Shown: positions 2,473-24,499 of the stretch, piece by piece
Layout: every line of letters starts with the position of its first letter
Numbering within the stretch: the stretch's first letter is position 1
From: Bacilli bacterium
GTDB lineage: Bacteria; Bacillota_I; Bacilli_A; RFN20; CAG-826
Direction: 5' to 3'
Length of the DNA stretch: 60,209 nt
Assembly (NCBI GenBank): GCA_017447165.1
Contig: JAFSOD010000005.1
Coordinates: forward strand, 1 to 60,209
Notes under the pieces: generated by a model
Told to the model about the DNA's origin: nothing
Seen by the model: only the letters and a program-made list of their open reading frames with translations
The model's database searches: none
Translations under genes and position numbers: made by a program

Positions 2473-4608
2473 CTAAAAACTTTTACGTTTGATTTTTCTA
2501 TATAAGATTAATAAAGAATTAATAACCATTAATACTGTTAAACCCGTATCTGCTAATACGGCTAACCACATCGGAATCACTTCTGCCATTCCTAATAAGC
2601 TAGTGATAATTGCGGCAAGCTCTACTCCAACTTTAACGCTTAAAGCAAAGATAATGTTAAAGATAGAGGTGTGTCTAGCAATTTTAGCGATCTTTAATGA
2701 ATCATAAACCTTCATTGGTTCATCATTCATAATAACGACATCCGCGCTTTCAATCGCCGCATCGCTACCAATCGCGCCCATAGCAAAGCCAATATCTGCT
2801 CTTTTAATTGAAGCCGCGTCGTTAATTCCATCTCCAATAAAGCCAGTCGCATATTTATTAGATAACTCTTTTTCTAAACATTCAATCTTTTGATCTGGGA
2901 GCAAAGAGGAATAATATTTTTTAATGCCTAAATCTTCACACATTAATCTGGTGTTATGTTCTTTATCTCCAGTTAATAAAACCACTTCAACACCTTTATC
3001 TTGAAGAGAGGAAACAAGCTCTTTGCTGCTCTCTCTAACTTCATCTGAGATCACGAGATATCCAATGTATTTGCCATCATACACGCAGTAGACTACAACG
3101 CCATTTTCGTCGACTTCAGTGAAATTAACTTCATACTCTTTTAATAGTTTAGCGTTACCAATTAAGACCATGTCTCCGTTATAAGTTGCACAGACGCCTA
3201 AACCCGCTAATTCTTCAAAATTTTCGCTCAAAACGCTACTTTTTCTTAATTTTGCTATGGTTTTTCCAATTGGATGGTTGCTTAAAGATTCAACGCTAGA
3301 CATCACATCTAATAGGAATTCTTCTTTAACTCCAATAGGAACAACTTTACTAATTTCAAAGACGCCTTTAGTTAAGGTACCGGTCTTATCAGTCACTAAC
3401 TTTTTCATCCTATTAAGTTCATCAATATAGTTAGTGCCTTTAAAGACAATACCGTTTTTACTCGCTAAGCCAAGAGCGGCAAAATAAGCAAGTGGGACTG
3501 AGATAACAATCGCACAAGGACAAGCGACTACCATCATCTTTAGACCTAGGATAACCCAGTTCTTCCAATCACTAGTAACCGCTCCACCAATAACCGCGAC
3601 AAGTAAAGAAGCAATAAAGACAATTGGGGTATACCATCTAGCGAATTTAGAAACAAATTCATCAGCCTTAGATTTTTTAGCCCCACTATTAGAGATTAAA
3701 TCAATAATCTTACTAACCGCAGAGTTTTGATAAGTTCTAATAACTTTCAAAGTTAAAGTTCCTTCTTTTAATAAGTATCCAGAATATAATTCCATTCCTT
3801 CTTTAGAAGAAACAGGGACAAATTCACCAGTAAGACTAGAAGTATCAACTTGTCCTTCTCCAGAAAGTACAACTGCATCTACTGGAATATATTCTCCCGC
3901 AGTGACAATAATGGTGTCTCCAACATCAAGCATATCTGGAGATACTTCTTTTTGTTCATTGTCTTTTATTAAAGTCGCGTGTTCAATTCTAAGATTTACC
4001 GCTCTAGCGACAGCCTCTTTAGATTTATTGGTGGCAATTCCTTCGATAATCTTACCGACTTGATATAAAGTAACGACCATTAAAGCTTCCATAAAGAAAT
4101 GAGATTCATGAGCGATAATCGCCACTATAAATGCACCTACGGTACATAACGTAATTAATAATGATTCATCAATAGGATTTTCTTTATGAATAATATGAAG
4201 TACTACTTTCCAAGTTACATCATAAGTTAATAAGACTATGCCAAAAGCATATAAGCCTAGTTGAATATAGAATTGGTCATGAGTTAACGCTAAAGAGCAC
4301 ACTAAGATAATAGTGACACCAATAATGACTCTAGCTAATGTATACCAGAAGTCTTTATTAAGAATCTTATATTTCTTCTTTGTTTTATTTGCGTCAGTAA
4401 TCTCAATTGGATCAGATTCCACTTCGGCAATCGTTTTTAAAATATCATCAATAGATAATTCACCTTCTTTATATTCGATAAATAATCTATCCTTAGCAAA
4501 ATCAATCACTGCTCTATTAATGGCAGGATGTTTATTTAAATGTTTTTCGCTTTTAAGAGCGCAATGTGCACAATCAAAGCCAGTGATGTGATAAGTCTTC
4601 TTAGTCAT
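2473..4608 (-). CDS. zntA: Zn/Cd/Pb-exporting P1B-type ATPase
   Basis: A 711-residue heavy-metal pump. An N-terminal HMA domain carries the metal-binding GFDCAHC (about 13-19 of the longer frame). Next come membrane helices, an actuator domain with TGE (about 263-265), the ion-path motif CPC (about 366-368), the phosphorylation motif DKTGTLT (about 410-416) and the hinge GDGINDA (about 600). CPC together with the cysteine HMA places it in the ZntA/CadA group, which exports divalent soft metals. The ATG at 4608 is preferred over the one at 4617 because GGAGG lies 9 bases upstream of it. It overlaps the end of the ArsR gene by 8 bases, so the two are translationally coupled and share the metal-responsive promoter. 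Confidence 0.92.
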   Translation of the reverse strand: MTKKTYHITGFDCAHCALKSEKHLNKHPAINRAVIDFAKDRLFIEYKEGELSIDDILKTIAEVESDPIEITDANKTKKKYKILNKDFWYTLARVIIGVTIILVCSLALTHDQFYIQLGLYAFGIVLLTYDVTWKVVLHIIHKENPIDESLLITLCTVGAFIVAIIAHESHFFMEALMVVTLYQVGKIIEGIATNKSKEAVARAVNLRIEHATLIKDNEQKEVSPDMLDVGDTIIVTAGEYIPVDAVVLSGEGQVDTSSLTGEFVPVSSKEGMELYSGYLLKEGTLTLKVIRTYQNSAVSKIIDLISNSGAKKSKADEFVSKFARWYTPIVFIASLLVAVIGGAVTSDWKNWVILGLKMMVVACPCAIVISVPLAYFAALGLASKNGIVFKGTNYIDELNRMKKLVTDKTGTLTKGVFEISKVVPIGVKEEFLLDVMSSVESLSNHPIGKTIAKLRKSSVLSENFEELAGLGVCATYNGDMVLIGNAKLLKEYEVNFTEVDENGVVVYCVYDGKYIGYLVISDEVRESSKELVSSLQDKGVEVVLLTGDKEHNTRLMCEDLGIKKYYSSLLPDQKIECLEKELSNKYATGFIGDGINDAASIKRADIGFAMGAIGSDAAIESADVVIMNDEPMKVYDSLKIAKIARHTSIFNIIFALSVKVGVELAAIITSLLGMAEVIPMWLAVLADTGLTVLMVINSLLILYRKIKRKSF

Positions 4609-8365: not shown

Positions 8366-9571
8366 AGATTTGCTGAAGATGAATTAACTTCAATCAGTAA
8401 TAATGTTAAATGGTCAAAGGAAAAAATCATGGCCAAAGGTCGATTTTATTTCGATGCAGGCAGGATGTTCGGTTTTAAATTTGATGATGATAGAAAAGCT
8501 ATCATAAACGAGAAAGAAGCTTATTGGGTAAGGAAGATATTCTCCATGTACCTAGAAGGTTATAACTCAGCCTTAATTGCAGACTTCTTAGAACAAAATA
8601 ATGTTAAAACCTCAACTGGAAACGATAGATGGTCATCATGTTCTATTAGAAAGTTGATTAGAAACGAGAAATACTGTGGGGATGTTATTCTTCAGAAAAG
8701 ATATTCAGAAAGTCCAATAACCAAAAGGATGATAACCAATAACGGTCAAAAGGATAAATATTATCTTGAAGGCGCTTTGCCTGCAATTGTCAGTAAAGAA
8801 ATATGGAACGCGTGTCAAAGTAAAATGGATGAAAACGTCAAGAGATTTAAAATCACGCACGAAAGCCATAAAGCAAATGAAAACTCATATACAAGATTTG
8901 GATATTGCCCATATTGTCAAAACACTTATTATCGAAAACTGAATCACGGTAAGGAACTCCTCTACTGTTATAGCAACAAAAATAGGATGATTTGTAAGGA
9001 TAGCGAATCAGTTTATATTGCTCATCTAGATAAGATAATTCCACTACTGGTAAAGAAACTAAAGGCAAATGAATATGAATTAAGAAAGGAACTCATATCT
9101 GCATATGAAGAAAGCGACATCACTGCTATCGACACAAAAATTTCTAATTTAAATGAGGAATTGCAGCTTTTAAGAGACAAAAAGTCCGAATATGATAATT
9201 TAACCGGTGAGGCATTTGATGCCCTTAGAATTCAGTTTAAAAAAGAAATTGATAGAATCACTAATGAACTACTTATTTTAGAAAATGAGAAAGCCACCAC
9301 TATTAATCCTTCATGCATCGCAGATAACATAATAAATGAACTTAGGGCATTCCCAGATGATGAATCAATAGGTAACTATGATTTTAGAAAGTTATTTAAA
9401 AGATTAATTGTTATAAATCGCGATAGACTTGTCTTTGTAATTGGTTCTGATGATTTAAGCAAACTCCCACTTAATCCAAACGCAATAAGCATGGGATTTG
9501 TAGAGAGTTATGATTATGTAATTAGATCAAGTTCCTTTAGATGCTTATTTGGAATATACATTAATAAATAA
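8366..9571 (+). pseudogene. Large serine recombinase lacking the catalytic domain
   Basis: The frame from the ATG at 8429 gives 380 residues, and in-frame recombinase-like sequence (RFAEDELTSISNNVKW) extends up to about 8366. What remains is the recombinase domain (GRMFGFKFDDD, then KIFSMYLEGYNSALIADFL, then the RKLIRNEKYCGDV motif), the zinc ribbon (CPYCQN with the later C residues) and the coiled coil (about 210-280). The whole N-terminal resolvase domain with the catalytic serine is missing, about 120-140 residues by family comparison. This was probably the integrase of the decayed prophage and should be inactive. It is followed by a perfect intrinsic terminator. Confidence 0.85.
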
Positions 9572-9933: not shown

Positions 9934-9949
9934 TGGTGGGTACTGACGG
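9934..9949. repeat. attL: 16-bp copy of the tRNA-Val 3' end
   Basis: TGGTGGGTACTGACGG here is identical to 15154-15169, the CCA and T-arm side of tRNA-Val. ATTTTATCAA also precedes both copies (9921-9930 and 15143-15152). This is the standard signature of site-specific insertion into a tRNA gene. Confidence 0.85.
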
Positions 9950-10339: not shown

Positions 10340-12589
10340 TTAGAATCTACTGTTCTCTTTTTTCCTCCTTGATTTTATGTCAGAATTTCTCTTGATATAT
10401 TGCTTTATAGTCGTCCCTAATTCTCCAAACATATATCCGTGAGTACGTTCAAGCTCTTTAAATGATGCTGTAGATCCTTCGAATGAATCAACCTGGTTGT
10501 TTCCTTCTTCGGCTTGAAGTTTAAGCTTGTCAAAATATCCGCTATAGACAGCGGTATCAAATTTTTTGCCAGAATAAACGATTTTATCCATGACATAAAA
10601 TGTCGATTCTCCTCGTTGTTCTTGGCCGCCATTGATACCAACTCCAGATAGATTCAAATCGTATCTCTTATAGCCAAAAGTATTCGCTATTTTTCGATTT
10701 AAATTATAGAAAAACGAATACATGTGGAATACATAATATGAGAATAGAGTTTGATCGTTTCTATGAGCGATGTATTTGTTATATAAATTAGAGTAATGAC
10801 TAAGCCCCCACTCTAAAACAATGCCCTCAAAAAACCAAAGAGGAAGTGCGTTTTTTCTATTTCTCGTCTGTTTTGGAAGAAAAATATTTACCTCTGCCAT
10901 TGCCGCTTCTACTTGCCTCAACGCAGATATTTTTTGATCATCCCAAATGATGAATCCATATTGTTGATGCCTTACAGTTGTTAAATGTCGAATAAGACCA
11001 AGACAATTAGCGAGTCCGTCATTCGATGGATTCGTTTCTCCAAAATCACGATTCTTATTAGTGTCTCTGTTCCCTCTTTCTTTGGCGATTTCTGAAATGG
11101 TAATAACTCCAAAATCAAACAAGGTAATTAAACGATCTAATTCCTTCTTTTCCGCATCAGTTAAATCTTTTGGATCTTTATTATACATCTTTTCAACCTG
11201 GCTATTTAAACGAAGCAAATTGTAATCAAAAATATTCGCGTGATAACTCTGATTTGTTTGTTTATATTCATCCATCTTTATGTCGCGATGAAAAAAATTA
11301 TATTTTAAGCCAGGAAAAGCGTGAGTCAGTTCTACTCCTTCATCATATCTGATTGAATATGTTGAATAAGCCAAGATCGATATATAAATGAAATAGAGCT
11401 GCGCGTAATCGTTTAACTCATCTTTTATATAAGCAACAGAAAGGCCATCGTAATGACAGTTCTTGTTATAACGTAAATCGTAACCATAGATGATTTCTGA
11501 CTTCTTAAATTTGTCCTTAAAATAAAACTCAATTTGAATTTTATTAACACATTTAGATTCTTCCTTTAGAGATTCGATTTCTTCTTCGAGATAACGAAAA
11601 GGAAATTCTGGAAATTCCGCTCTAATTTCCAACATCTGAGATCTCGCCTTTTCTCTAAGCATAACTTCGATTTGAGTAGCGAAAGCAACCGCGGATGTAG
11701 TTTTTCCTGTTCCTGGAGGTCCATAAATACCAGTAACAACTCCAAAATTGTCTTGAATGAACGTTTCATTCCTATAAAACATATCTTCAAGTTTTGAATA
11801 TCCTTTATCTATTTTCTTTTTAATGATTAACACAAACAGCAACACTATCCATGCTGGCCAAAAAATCGGCCTTAAAAGTGGAGAAATGCAGATGAAAAAT
11901 TTACATATTAAATACCATATTGAAAGAAAGTCCATCGAGAAAACAAAATATAAATACCAGGCTATTACTATTAGAAATAGCGAAACAATGTTTACATTAT
12001 ATAAAAGAATAATTAAGTATGGCCAGAAGAGCCATTTTGTATATCGTAAATTAAACCACAGCTCTAAAATAAAGAACTTGATGCGATCATATATCTGCAA
12101 TTTAAATTTTAAAAACAGCTTCAGAGGCGCGCTTTGCTGGCTTGATTCGCTTTTAACAACATCCCTAAACAATCTTACGTAATATAAGACAATAAACATT
12201 ACAATTGGAAGCCCAATTAGCATAAAAATACTTAACAGATTACTCATTGTCATTCCAAAGTTATACCATGAAGGCGTTATAAAGTTTTTATTAACCATTA
12301 ACTCAAATGTTGCTAAAAATTTATATCCAAACACTTCTATATCAACTGGAAGTAAACTTTTTATTATTGAGTCATCAAACACTAAGTAGCTTACATTGTC
12401 TTTTGAAACCGTCTCTTCAGATACAGCAAACAGATTCTTCCCATAATAAATCGCTGAGTCAATAAATTCTTTTCCGCTTTTCAAAAAAAGCCTATGTGAT
12501 GTCAAGTTAAAAACGGTTGCAACAATTACGCCAGTCAAAACAGCCAATAAGATTATTTGATAAACGTTTATTCTCTTGCTATTCTTCAT
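10340..12589 (-). CDS. Membrane P-loop ATPase, Zot/pI-like assembly protein candidate
   Basis: A 749-residue protein. The N-terminal 260 residues hold about five membrane helices (near 10-30, 112-138, 188-216, 220-236 and 241-257). A cytoplasmic ATPase follows with Walker A GPPGTGKTT (290-298), a Walker B candidate VITISE (about 495-500) and a downstream motif RHQQYGFIIWDDQKISALRQ (about 540-559). That motif resembles the HR-G-TQ-I-R signature of Zot/pI proteins, which drive filamentous-phage extrusion. The C-terminal 200 residues are basic. Classical Zot proteins have the ATPase first and one helix later, so the topology here is reversed. It overlaps the upstream lipoprotein gene by 11 bases and ends the module. 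A conjugation or DNA-transport ATPase remains possible. Confidence 0.6.
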   Translation of the reverse strand: MKNSKRINVYQIILLAVLTGVIVATVFNLTSHRLFLKSGKEFIDSAIYYGKNLFAVSEETVSKDNVSYLVFDDSIIKSLLPVDIEVFGYKFLATFELMVNKNFITPSWYNFGMTMSNLLSIFMLIGLPIVMFIVLYYVRLFRDVVKSESSQQSAPLKLFLKFKLQIYDRIKFFILELWFNLRYTKWLFWPYLIILLYNVNIVSLFLIVIAWYLYFVFSMDFLSIWYLICKFFICISPLLRPIFWPAWIVLLFVLIIKKKIDKGYSKLEDMFYRNETFIQDNFGVVTGIYGPPGTGKTTSAVAFATQIEVMLREKARSQMLEIRAEFPEFPFRYLEEEIESLKEESKCVNKIQIEFYFKDKFKKSEIIYGYDLRYNKNCHYDGLSVAYIKDELNDYAQLYFIYISILAYSTYSIRYDEGVELTHAFPGLKYNFFHRDIKMDEYKQTNQSYHANIFDYNLLRLNSQVEKMYNKDPKDLTDAEKKELDRLITLFDFGVITISEIAKERGNRDTNKNRDFGETNPSNDGLANCLGLIRHLTTVRHQQYGFIIWDDQKISALRQVEAAMAEVNIFLPKQTRNRKNALPLWFFEGIVLEWGLSHYSNLYNKYIAHRNDQTLFSYYVFHMYSFFYNLNRKIANTFGYKRYDLNLSGVGINGGQEQRGESTFYVMDKIVYSGKKFDTAVYSGYFDKLKLQAEEGNNQVDSFEGSTASFKELERTHGYMFGELGTTIKQYIKRNSDIKSRRKKENSRF

Positions 12590-12974: not shown

Positions 12975-13964
12975 CTACGCTTTTTCTTTTTTGATGTCAT
13001 CAATATAATTGACCAAGCAATCATAATACTCTTCAAACGAAACATTCATATATCCAATTTCATGTGTGACTGGATTATATAAAAGTTGCGTATCAAAAGC
13101 AGCCAACATATCACGGATGGATTCACTAATTAAATCATTCCAATCATTAAGAGTGTAAAACCATTTATAAAGACGAAATCCAATCGCACTGCTTAAATCT
13201 CTATGAACGTTAAAAAGTAAAGGATTGTTACTATAATCTGTAGAAAAGTCAAAATCAATAAAACGAAGGTATGTAATATCATCCCAATAATCGCTTATTT
13301 GATCTAAACCACCATTACAAGACAAATCTGAAGTATCGTACATTCCTGCTATTGCATCACTGTCGTAATGATATCCAAAATGGCTTTTTAAAGTTGAATC
13401 CGTATAGTCAAATAAAGCTGATCTATCAATTTTATCTTCTGTTGTTATCGATCCAGTAGATGACCAGGTTCCTTGCAAAAATCCAAAGAAATTTGAGTCA
13501 TTAGTTCCAGAAGTGTATGGATTCCAATCGCCAACAAATCCTTCTGTAAATTTTTGATTATAATGAATTGTCACATCCGCATAGACAGATGGATTATATG
13601 TAGCAGATATTCTTAAAGTTGCTAAAGAATTAAACGCTTGATAACAATAGACATTAATATATCCAGCATTTACATTATCAAGTACTGCTCTTAAATAGTT
13701 TGAGCCATCTTGCCTGTTATCTTCAAAAGTAATATTTAAATTAACGCCTTGTATCTTAGCATTGGCAGGCTGAACAGAATAAGAAAATCTAATACAATCG
13801 GCATTCTCGTTTCCATCAAAATAATGGCTTACAGATCTGACGGCAATAGTTTTCACTGCATCATCCTTGTTTTCATATGTATCAATTATTGTGCTTTGCT
13901 CACTACAAGCAACCAACGGCAATGACGCAAGTAAAGCGCAACATAATAAACTTTTTTTAATCAT
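12975..13964 (-). CDS. Exposed lipoprotein of the element, adsorption-protein candidate
   Basis: A 329-residue lipoprotein with signal peptide and lipobox LPLVAC (Cys20). Residues about 35-135 look like an Ig-like beta domain (FSYSVQPANAKIQGVNLNIT, ending in a VTIHY strand), similar in style to the Ig-like repeats of the host lipoprotein at 21281-23512. The remaining roughly 190 residues are rich in Asp, Tyr and Phe with no recognised motif. The GGAGG ribosome binding site overlaps the palindrome CTCCATGGAG, and a stronger GCTCCAG/CTGGAGC stem lies just upstream, so translation may be controlled. In a filamentous phage this position is held by the receptor-binding protein. Confidence 0.65.
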   Translation of the reverse strand: MIKKSLLCCALLASLPLVACSEQSTIIDTYENKDDAVKTIAVRSVSHYFDGNENADCIRFSYSVQPANAKIQGVNLNITFEDNRQDGSNYLRAVLDNVNAGYINVYCYQAFNSLATLRISATYNPSVYADVTIHYNQKFTEGFVGDWNPYTSGTNDSNFFGFLQGTWSSTGSITTEDKIDRSALFDYTDSTLKSHFGYHYDSDAIAGMYDTSDLSCNGGLDQISDYWDDITYLRFIDFDFSTDYSNNPLLFNVHRDLSSAIGFRLYKWFYTLNDWNDLISESIRDMLAAFDTQLLYNPVTHEIGYMNVSFEEYYDCLVNYIDDIKKEKA

Positions 13965-14066: not shown

Positions 14067-14159
14067 TTGACATAAATGTGTTTGTTTGATTAAATATAGT
14101 TAATTGGGTAGGCTGACGAAGATTCGCCTGCTAACACGGGAGGAAGATTCCCGTTTTTT
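14067..14159 (+). ncRNA. Candidate small RNA on the strand opposite the phage module
   Basis: TTGACA (14067-14072), a 17-base spacer and TTAAAT (14090-14095) could be a promoter. About 55 bases later lies a strong terminator, ACGGGA/TCCCGT (14136-14154) followed by six T. In between, AGGC...CGAA...TTCG...CCT (14110-14129) can fold into a second stem. No frame of useful length exists. The RNA would start near 14102 and lie between the 127-residue gene and the lipoprotein gene. Confidence 0.4.
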
Positions 14160-14541
14160 ATATGATGTTCTTGTATTTTTTAGGAAACTTGAACTTGTTG
14201 TTTTGAACAAATAGTTTTGACTTCTTGATCCAAATCCCTTTTCTATTTATTCCAGATAGTTTTTTAGAGTTAATTTGATTATTGGGTATTGGTATTATTT
14301 TTCCTGATTTAACATCTTCTAAAGCTGACTCGTGAAAATGATGCGTTCCATCTTTTCGGATATTTTCTAAAGATGTAATTGTTTTTACTTTGACAAATCC
14401 TTTATTTGATGACTTTGTAACCACAAATACATCATGCTCGCCATTCATCAAATTTCCCTCTCTGTCTTTAATCTTCAAATCCTTGTTTGATGCAGAATAG
14501 CATCCGTATTTAATGATTCTTTTTGGCTTTTGCTTGCTCAT
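14158..14541 (-). CDS. Unknown basic protein of the element
   Basis: A 127-residue, strongly basic protein without signal peptide or membrane helix. The middle (DVFVVTKSSNKGFVKVKTIT) is beta-rich, and the tail is lysine-rich (KKSKLF, KFKFPKKYK). It has a clear AGGTGG ribosome binding site and overlaps the end of the upstream small membrane-protein gene by 32 bases, so it belongs to the same module. A basic soluble protein at this position could bind DNA. I recognise no family and assign no function. The candidate small RNA lies immediately downstream on the other strand. Confidence 0.55.
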   Translation of the reverse strand: MSKQKPKRIIKYGCYSASNKDLKIKDREGNLMNGEHDVFVVTKSSNKGFVKVKTITSLENIRKDGTHHFHESALEDVKSGKIIPIPNNQINSKKLSGINRKGIWIKKSKLFVQNNKFKFPKKYKNII

Positions 14542-14740
14542 GCTTTTCCACCTTTCTAGGTTTCGCTCTAATAATTCCGTTTTTCTTATCTTTATGACGC
14601 TTCACCAGGAAGATAATTAGGACAATTGCGAAGATAATGAATCCGATGCCTAAAACCATTATGGCGATGGCGATTAAAGCTAATCCGCCAAATAAGCTTC
14701 CAAGAGCTTCTCCAAATGTTTGTAACACCACTGCTGTCAT
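14510..14740 (-). CDS. Small membrane protein with basic tail, coat-protein candidate
   Basis: A 76-residue protein. After 12 residues, a continuous hydrophobic stretch (about 13-47, with small residues GGLALIAIAIMVLGIGF then IIFAIVLIIFLV) is followed by a 28-residue tail dominated by Lys, Arg and His. Short length, a Gly/Ala-rich helix and a strongly basic C-terminus are the properties of filamentous-phage major coat proteins, where the tail faces DNA. It has no signal sequence before the helix. It is the first gene of the minus-strand module, preceded by AGGAG. Any small membrane protein would look similar, so the coat role is inference. Confidence 0.55.
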   Translation of the reverse strand: MTAVVLQTFGEALGSLFGGLALIAIAIMVLGIGFIIFAIVLIIFLVKRHKDKKNGIIRAKPRKVEKHEQAKAKKNH

Positions 14741-14783: not shown

Positions 14784-15029
14784 ATCAATCAAATCGAAGT
14801 CATCAGTTTATATCAACATATTGAAATGTCAAAAGTAACAAAGATTACTCCTCACGGAATCAGACACAGTAATGCGACATGGCTGCTAAATAATCCTAAT
14901 CTAACAATGATGGAAATTGGAATGATCTCTGAGCGACTTGGCCACGAATCAAAAAAAGTCACACTGGATATTTACTATCACTTAACAAAAAATAAAGACA
15001 ATAAAAACATTTTGTCTGCACTACTATAA
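14784..15029 (+). pseudogene. Tyrosine integrase, C-terminal remnant
   Basis: The frame contains the end of a tyrosine recombinase: HGIRHSNATWLL (catalytic H-x-x-R), then ISERLGHESKKVTLDIYYHL with the second His and the nucleophilic Tyr. Recombinase-like sequence begins after a TAA at 14781. The first conserved Arg, the core-binding domain and the arm-binding domain are absent. An ATG at 14826 gives 67 residues at most. Its place beside attR is where the integrase of such an element belongs. It should not be able to catalyse recombination by itself. Confidence 0.85.
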
Positions 15030-15153: not shown

Positions 15154-15229
15154 TGGTGGGTACTGACGGGATCGAACCGCCGACCTTCTGTACGTCAAAC
15201 AGATGCTCTCCCAGCTGAGCTAAATACCC
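15154..15229 (-). tRNA. tRNA-Val(GAC), integration site
   Basis: Acceptor GGGTATT/AGTACCC. Anticodon stem TCTGT/ACAGA encloses the loop TTGACGT, giving GAC. CCA is encoded. Its last 16 bases are the attR copy (15154-15169), so integration left the gene intact. Confidence 0.95.
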
Positions 15230-24364: not shown

Positions 24365-24384
24365 TTCTTTTTTCATAATTCTAC

Positions 24385-24407
24385 AAAAAATGCGGAAGTA
24401 CTTCCGC
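24385..24407 (-). terminator. Intrinsic terminator
   Basis: The 16-bp palindrome GCGGAAGTACTTCCGC (24392-24407) is followed on the minus strand by ATTTTTTG. It lies between the transposase scraps and the DUF3800 gene. Confidence 0.65.
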
Positions 24408-24499
24408 GTTCAATGTGAACCTAGAGGTTTCCCTCAGCTCAACTATATATTACAAGACAAATTTCAAGTTGACAATAAGAATGTACGACAAAATAACAT

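Follow-up and report, generated by a model that had tools for sequence, protein, structure and literature searches.

The small RNA unit and the gene that it faces

The DNA analysed here (the window) comprises the 60,209 nucleotides of contig 5 of a 1.30-Mb Bacilli assembly (GenBank GCA_017447165.1). It carries a 5.2-kb element between 16-bp direct repeats (9934-9949 and 15154-15169), and our subject is a convergent pair inside this element, namely a putative small RNA on the plus strand (14067-14160) and a minus-strand gene (14158-14541) for a 127-residue protein with a predicted MazF/PemK fold. The two lie tail to tail, and the T-run at the 3′ end of the RNA meets the stop codon of the gene (14158-14160). 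A sequence-only reading had described the RNA as a TTGACA-17-TTAAAT promoter followed by two hairpins and a terminator, and each of these parts was found in place. The promoter (14067-14095), read from the sequence, consists of TTGACA at 14067-14072, a 17-nt spacer and TTAAAT at 14090-14095. Hairpin 1 of the computed fold occupies 14107-14132 and carries GAAGATTC in its loop region; hairpin 2 (14136-14154), the loop region of which carries GAAGATTC again, forms an intrinsic terminator (14136-14160) together with the T-run at 14155-14160. The distance of about 40 bases to the hairpins given by that reading holds when counted from the -35 box, but hairpin 1 starts 11 nt past the -10 hexamer. As was described, the unit has the 127-residue gene on one side and, beyond the RNA promoter, the phage-module gene for a 329-residue lipoprotein-like product (12975-13964, minus strand; labelled by eye from the sequence) on the other.

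The RNA folds with a minimum free energy of -19.8 kcal/mol (z -2.37), and 4 of 200 shuffled sequences were as stable. Between 9700 and 15400, nine terminator-like sites were found against 2.5 expected, and the RNA terminator is among the nine. The promoter-like sites of this interval are as a class not above chance (26 found, 25.7 expected), and the scan, which demands an A at the second position of the -10 box, did not list the RNA promoter. The promoter alone is weak sequence evidence for an RNA unit, and it is conservation, as seen in sequence comparisons, that raises the unit above chance. A search of 14067-14160 against Rfam returned nothing above the gathering threshold, with a fungal snoRNA as the best match below it (E 0.26).

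Conservation was assessed in genomes of the same family (G-numbers; L-numbers denote fetched loci), most of which are drafts in many contigs. A first DNA search with a 201-nt intergenic query gave hits at E 0.1 in 81 of 196 genomes; with few exceptions these were short stretches at chance level, and only a few of the best were used. Three genomes of the same genus match the query at 107-200, from the -35 box to the terminator, with 76-77% identity; the ATPase of the window element has no match in any of them. A covariance model of the RNA (R1), built from five copies, matches 8 of 224 family genomes at E 0.01 or better. Six of these matches are strong: the window's own genome (one match), G046, G067, G110, G090 and G022, the last of which scores 79.6 bits though it lies outside the set from which R1 was built. 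The matches in G063 and G082 are weak (about 30 bits or less), and a second match in G090 scores 30.6 bits. The window also holds a weak second match at 24384-24476 on the minus strand (25.3 bits, E 0.01), in which only the terminator hairpin is well kept.

In the six strong copies, the TTGAC of the -35 box is invariant and the -10 pattern T--AAT is, by eye, kept. A MAFFT alignment of these copies, five of them distinct, shows pairing in 74 of 75 cells (98.7%), against 36-56% when the partners are slid. Both sides have changed in 8 of the 15 pairs, 5 of 9 in hairpin 1 and 3 of 6 in hairpin 2. None of 500 shuffles matched either the percentage paired or the covariation score, and 208 of 500 reached the observed number of further pair types. 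Because the promoter, the T-run and the G-U pairs all belong to the plus strand, and the G-U pairs would be mismatches on the other, the plus strand is likely the RNA strand. We consider a small structured RNA on this strand to be well supported by the sequence comparisons and a regulatory role to be plausible. A small reading frame was considered in place of an RNA: a TTG/ATG frame exists in the window and in G046 and has, by eye, an early stop in G022, and the RNA was preferred on account of its covariation. A word common to the hairpins of one RNA occurs beyond chance in the window, G046, G022 and G236.

A further segment of about 150 nt lies directly upstream of the RNA in G046, G110 and G067, is kept together with it at 93-95% and is absent from the window. 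By eye, this segment (L053 about 3130-3280, minus strand, with equivalents in L054 and L055) looks like a second small-RNA unit; in L053 it shows TTGCAC-17-TATTAT, then a hairpin GCGATTAT...ATAATCGTC and a T-run.

Linkage of the RNA to homologues of the gene

According to the sequence-only reading, the RNA could be a regulator of the phage module or a primer for its replication. A small structured RNA with a plausible regulatory role agrees with part of this proposal, but the evidence ties the RNA to one gene. In G046, a homologue of the 127-residue protein (65% identity) faces the same RNA in the same place, away from phage genes; the pair is flanked by an XRE-type gene and a DUF1016 nuclease gene, and of the proteins encoded by the window element and its flank, six others were searched for in the 12 kb of G046 examined and gave no match. 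Between the window and G046, 451 nt of DNA are homologous (69%), beginning at the -35 box and leaving out about the first ten codons of the gene, and the divergence of the gene itself, with nonsynonymous changes (dN) at 0.26 and a proportion of synonymous differences (pS) of 0.81, which is saturated, indicates purifying selection. In more distant homologues, among them those of G263 and G236 (39% and 32% identical to the window protein), this convergent position is taken by RNAs whose sequences are dissimilar. Because convergent RNAs recur at homologues of the same gene elsewhere, the sequences point to an RNA that belongs to a gene-RNA pair, and less to the phage module or its replication.

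The RNA is also kept in G110, G067 and G022, three genomes in which the gene family was not detected at E 1e-4. In G110 and G067, the homology to G046 consists of the roughly 150 nt before the RNA and the RNA itself, ends where the RNA ends, and is followed by no gene; in G022, the sequence exactly beside the RNA matches the 3′ end of the gene over 12 residues (E 0.94). Four of the six strong RNA copies have a DUF1016/YhcG nuclease gene, or what appears by eye to be a fragment of one, in their vicinity (L056 271-1311, L053 3343-4368, and near the RNA in L054 and L055), and the one that was tested corresponds to the PADLOC candidate PDC-S02. In L056 (G090 contig 5), such a gene holds the convergent place of the 127-residue gene. 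In L122 and L123, the last codons of the family gene overlap the terminator of the convergent RNA.

Convergent units were counted with a detector that requires a promoter (spacer 16-18), a hairpin and a terminator near the stop codon, on the opposite strand. Candidates were drawn from the 127-residue family and from a second family of 117 residues (query L079:7731-8084). The strict detector accepted 4 of 19 candidates from both families; among the open reading frames (ORFs) in fetched loci it accepted 3 of 283, each of them at one of these RNAs. When relaxed to a promoter threshold of 9 of 12, it accepted 9 of 19 candidates and 6 of 254 ORFs, these six being five family genes and one orphan R1-type RNA that faces a DUF1016 gene. 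Five later homologues were added, of which two passed before and four after a last relaxation, in which two distance limits were loosened and, as two genes overlap the terminator with their last codons, the detector was allowed to reach 25 nt into the gene.

At threshold 9, the final version finds a convergent unit at 9 of 10 homologues outside genus g26, at 1 of 7 within g26, at 3 of 7 members of the second family (more by eye) and at 1 of 254 background ORFs, the single background positive being again an R1-type RNA. Threshold 8 leaves the first three counts unchanged (9/10, 1/7 and 3/7) with 5/254 in the background, and threshold 10 gives 6/10, 0/7, 2/7 and 1/254. Fisher's test of 9/10 against the background yields 7e-15, a value that is flattered by relaxation after cases had been seen; the background was scored with the same settings and with family genes removed. 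Not included in the final counts are G119 contig 15 (its protein is identical to that of G085), G076/L093 (the contig ends at the gene) and weak matches inside long ORFs (G126, G006 and G018), nor, for the second family, L108 and L114, which have stop codons in the match. A scan of further genome contigs gave no loci with a single sequence and nine with an alignment, mostly on known contigs, which were not recounted. The sequence-only reading had named loss of the hairpins beside conserved flanking genes as a sign against the RNA; by this comparison the hairpins persist at the 9 of 10 homologues outside g26 but are lost at most of those inside it. In g26, no RNA was seen by eye upstream of the gene as in classical type III systems. 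A conserved fold of the g26 3′ flank was sought and discarded, as RNAalifold gave, besides the terminator, only a hairpin that falls within the neighbouring reading frame.

Members of the second family (L079 7731-8084 and L106-L113) are often near an ATPase gene and tend to have a convergent two-hairpin RNA; L107 seemingly has two tandem copies of the RNA.

The carrier of the pair in the window is, to judge from its genes and those of relatives, an inovirus-like element. Its direct repeats are putative attachment sites, the left one reading TGGTGGGTACTGACGG and the right one lying inside the 3′ end of tRNA-Val. A 749-residue P-loop ATPase (10340-12589, minus strand) matches Pfam AAA just above the cut-off and does not match Zot; we infer the label Zot-like from its position and architecture. 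The element also encodes a 128-residue protein (minus strand) and, as part of the phage module, a 76-residue hydrophobic protein (14510-14740, minus strand), the gene of which overlaps the start of the 127-residue gene. The module genes had been described as lying all on the minus strand, which is true of all except the C-terminal fragment of a tyrosine integrase (14826-15029, plus strand). This fragment is matched by a 376-residue integrase of L066, the closest relative of the phage element (ATPase 53% identical), in which no match to the 127-residue gene was found at E 0.01. Because only the C-terminal piece of the integrase is present, and L066 has the 376-residue integrase without a toxin-family match, the window element looks degraded. 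No rolling-circle Rep, which together with a P-loop assembly ATPase with membrane segments marks inovirus-type elements, was seen among the window ORFs; Rep domains are present in the relatives L079, L102 and L120. Neither the ATPase nor the 127-residue gene has a relative among the viral contigs searched, and in phage and plasmid records the 127-residue gene and the second family are likewise without a match. On the far side of a tRNA-Gly, just outside the element, the window encodes a protein with the Pfam Recombinase domain (8429-9571).

Predicted fold of the 127-residue protein

PHROGs contain no match to the 127-residue protein, Pfam and NCBIfam none above the cut-off, and its sequence matches no known type III toxin family; library scans of its homologues were likewise without a convincing match, and a search of PDB sequences with the family profile gave none up to E 10. 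The single PADLOC match, to a type I specificity subunit, is weak (E 0.0053, 13.6 bits) and was taken as chance. An AlphaFold2 model from ten homologues, with a predicted local distance difference test score (pLDDT) of 87.4 and a predicted template modelling score (pTM) of 0.78, points to a MazF-type fold. Among the 50 VIA matches listed, 48 are MazF or other toxins and endoribonucleases and two are CcdB, the best being to MazF (Z 9.6, root-mean-square deviation 2.6, 94 residues); no ToxN-type chain is among these 50, which is uninformative either way. The best nine Foldseek matches are MazF chains (probability 0.97-1.00, best E 5.7e-3), and PemK-like proteins are at the top in a viral structure library (E 1.1e-3). 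The AlphaFold2 model of the second family is poor (pLDDT 57), and because of this we claim no MazF fold for that family.

His36 and the run Ile55-Thr56-Ser57 are invariant in 12 aligned homologues. The active site of ToxN is described as Lys33, Thr52, Ser53 and Lys55, after a conserved Leu51 (PMC8860590), and by eye the spacing of 20 between His36 and Thr56 fits the 19 of ToxN. By this analogy, we infer that His36 and Thr56-Ser57 are candidate active-site residues of an endoribonuclease toxin. A C-terminal 'P-KY' motif, present in five RNA-bearing proteins and not in seven of g26, is by eye missing in later RNA-bearing homologues and was left unused. Because the upstream ORFs at 9 of 10 homologues are mutually unrelated at E 0.05, except for a pair of large proteins in G236 and G488, no protein antitoxin is apparent.

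Readings of the gene-RNA pair and their meaning

We believe, with a probability of roughly one half, that the RNA is the antitoxin half of a toxin-antitoxin-like pair, which would resemble type III systems but be convergent and have an RNA promoter of its own. The 127-residue protein, judging by its model, would be an endoribonuclease toxin, and the separately transcribed RNA would bind it through the hairpins and hold it inactive; the toxin would be set free once the element is lost or transcription ceases. Each RNA would be recognised by its own protein. An RNA whose structure is kept by compensatory change and whose sequence differs widely between distant toxins is what cognate recognition would lead one to expect.

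Several results weigh against this proposal. The convergent unit is absent from 6 of 7 homologues in genus g26, a true exception. The detector was loosened twice after cases had been seen, and its strict version accepted only the 4 of 19. Repeat-like hairpins, which are typical of type III RNAs, are significant in only 4 of the 12 RNAs tested, two of them close relatives, and the hairpin limits were set by eye. The Foldseek E-values miss 0.001 both for the MazF chains and in the viral library, and a histidine stands in place of a lysine at the presumed catalytic position. The orphan RNAs could also be expected from a drifting shared terminator. The operon order that defines type III was tested and is absent, and because of this the pair cannot be filed as a member of that type.

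Type III systems (ToxIN, CptIN and TenpIN) are alike in that a structured small RNA is encoded with a protein of the MazF/Kid fold, which their toxins have in common, and often on the mobilome; their RNA repeats vary between systems and co-evolve with the toxin (PMC5086642, PMC4627078). Outside g26, the sequences likewise link the RNA to the putative toxin gene. In the type III order as described in PMC5086642, however, one promoter precedes RNA, terminator and toxin, whereas here the RNA is downstream, convergent and under its own putative promoter, with two hairpins, no pseudoknot shown and no sequence match in the family libraries searched. In the type III-like AbiF/RCd22 system of Clostridioides difficile, the RNA is encoded on a prophage, measures about 100-130 nt, has two motifs as well as a terminator and a sigma A promoter, and is reported to neutralise the AbiF protein directly; the system differs in that this RNA is upstream and co-transcribed (PMC12373285).

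The main rival is an action like that of type I antitoxins, possible in our opinion but unlikely, in which the RNA would be antisense to the 3′ end of the toxin mRNA and cause its decay or a block of translation, with hairpins that only stabilise. Three type I pairs of C. difficile, CD0956.2-RCd10 and CD2907.1-RCd9 on prophages and CD2517.1-RCd8, have toxin and antitoxin genes that converge and overlap as here, with antitoxins that act by base pairing (PMC6563280). On the minus strand the hairpins are, by eye, not followed by a T-run, and an mRNA that reads past the stop codon would therefore be fully complementary to the RNA. The toxins of those three pairs, however, are small and hydrophobic (34-59 residues; 28-60 for the type I toxins of Bacillus subtilis and C. 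difficile, as given in PMC6563280), in contrast to 127 residues and a predicted MazF-like fold. The RNA is antisense only to what follows the gene; its overlap with the reading frame amounts to the stop codon in the window and to a few codons in L122 and L123, and beyond the overlap it pairs with the mRNA no better than shuffles do (44 of 60 and 19 of 60 were as good). RNA copies also keep their promoter and structure where no gene was found. By its parts, the pair resembles type III and by its gene order a convergent type I, with one defining feature of each lacking.

That the RNA acts on some other target of host or phage and has no more than a terminator in common with the gene, whose product would be an ordinary phage or defence protein, seems doubtful to us. 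DUF1016/YhcG, AbiE and type IIG restriction genes are found in the neighbourhood of RNA copies that lack the gene, and the DUF1016 gene of L056 faces the same type of RNA; yet at 9 of 10 homologues outside g26 the same place is filled by a convergent unit, several of these units being unrelated in sequence, and a plain terminator needs neither a promoter nor a first hairpin. A type II system, in which a MazF toxin would have an unrecognised protein antitoxin and the RNA would be incidental, would account for the fold, which the model predicts to be that of MazEF/PemIK toxins; we consider it improbable given the unrelated upstream ORFs, as MazEF/PemIK have a protein antitoxin and none is conserved here. 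Least credible is the replication primer of the sequence-only reading, or an origin or packaging element of single-stranded phage DNA: 198 nt of the RNA strand also fold as DNA (z -3.19), but the cassette of G046 lies away from phage genes and the plus-strand G-U pairs would mismatch on the other strand.

A bolder version of the antitoxin proposal, which we regard as rather unlikely, is a new class of RNA-protein toxin-antitoxin systems in filamentous phages of Bacilli, in which a convergent RNA with its own promoter would both bind the MazF-fold toxin and be antisense to the end of its mRNA, and orphan copies in hosts, near defence genes, would give immunity to the toxin of incoming phages.

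In the open-access literature searched, no MazF-fold toxin with a convergent RNA turned up, which is not proof of absence. The cataloguing rule for type III as described in PMC5086642 demands a terminator and RNA repeats upstream of the toxin, and because it looks upstream, it would miss a convergent order by design. In the account given in PMC6813254, the toxin-antitoxin pairs predicted in an inovirus survey are type II, save one of type IV. The similar gene-RNA pairs in other uncultured bacteria suggest that an RNA serves as the antidote, in an arrangement of genes for which we came across no description among such systems. If it is true that the RNA restrains the toxin, RNA-antitoxin systems would be extended to inovirus-like elements of uncultured Bacilli, and a small MazF-fold gene with a convergent promoter, hairpin and terminator would be the signature by which to search for them. 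The orphan RNA copies would then make RNA-based anti-addiction directly testable.
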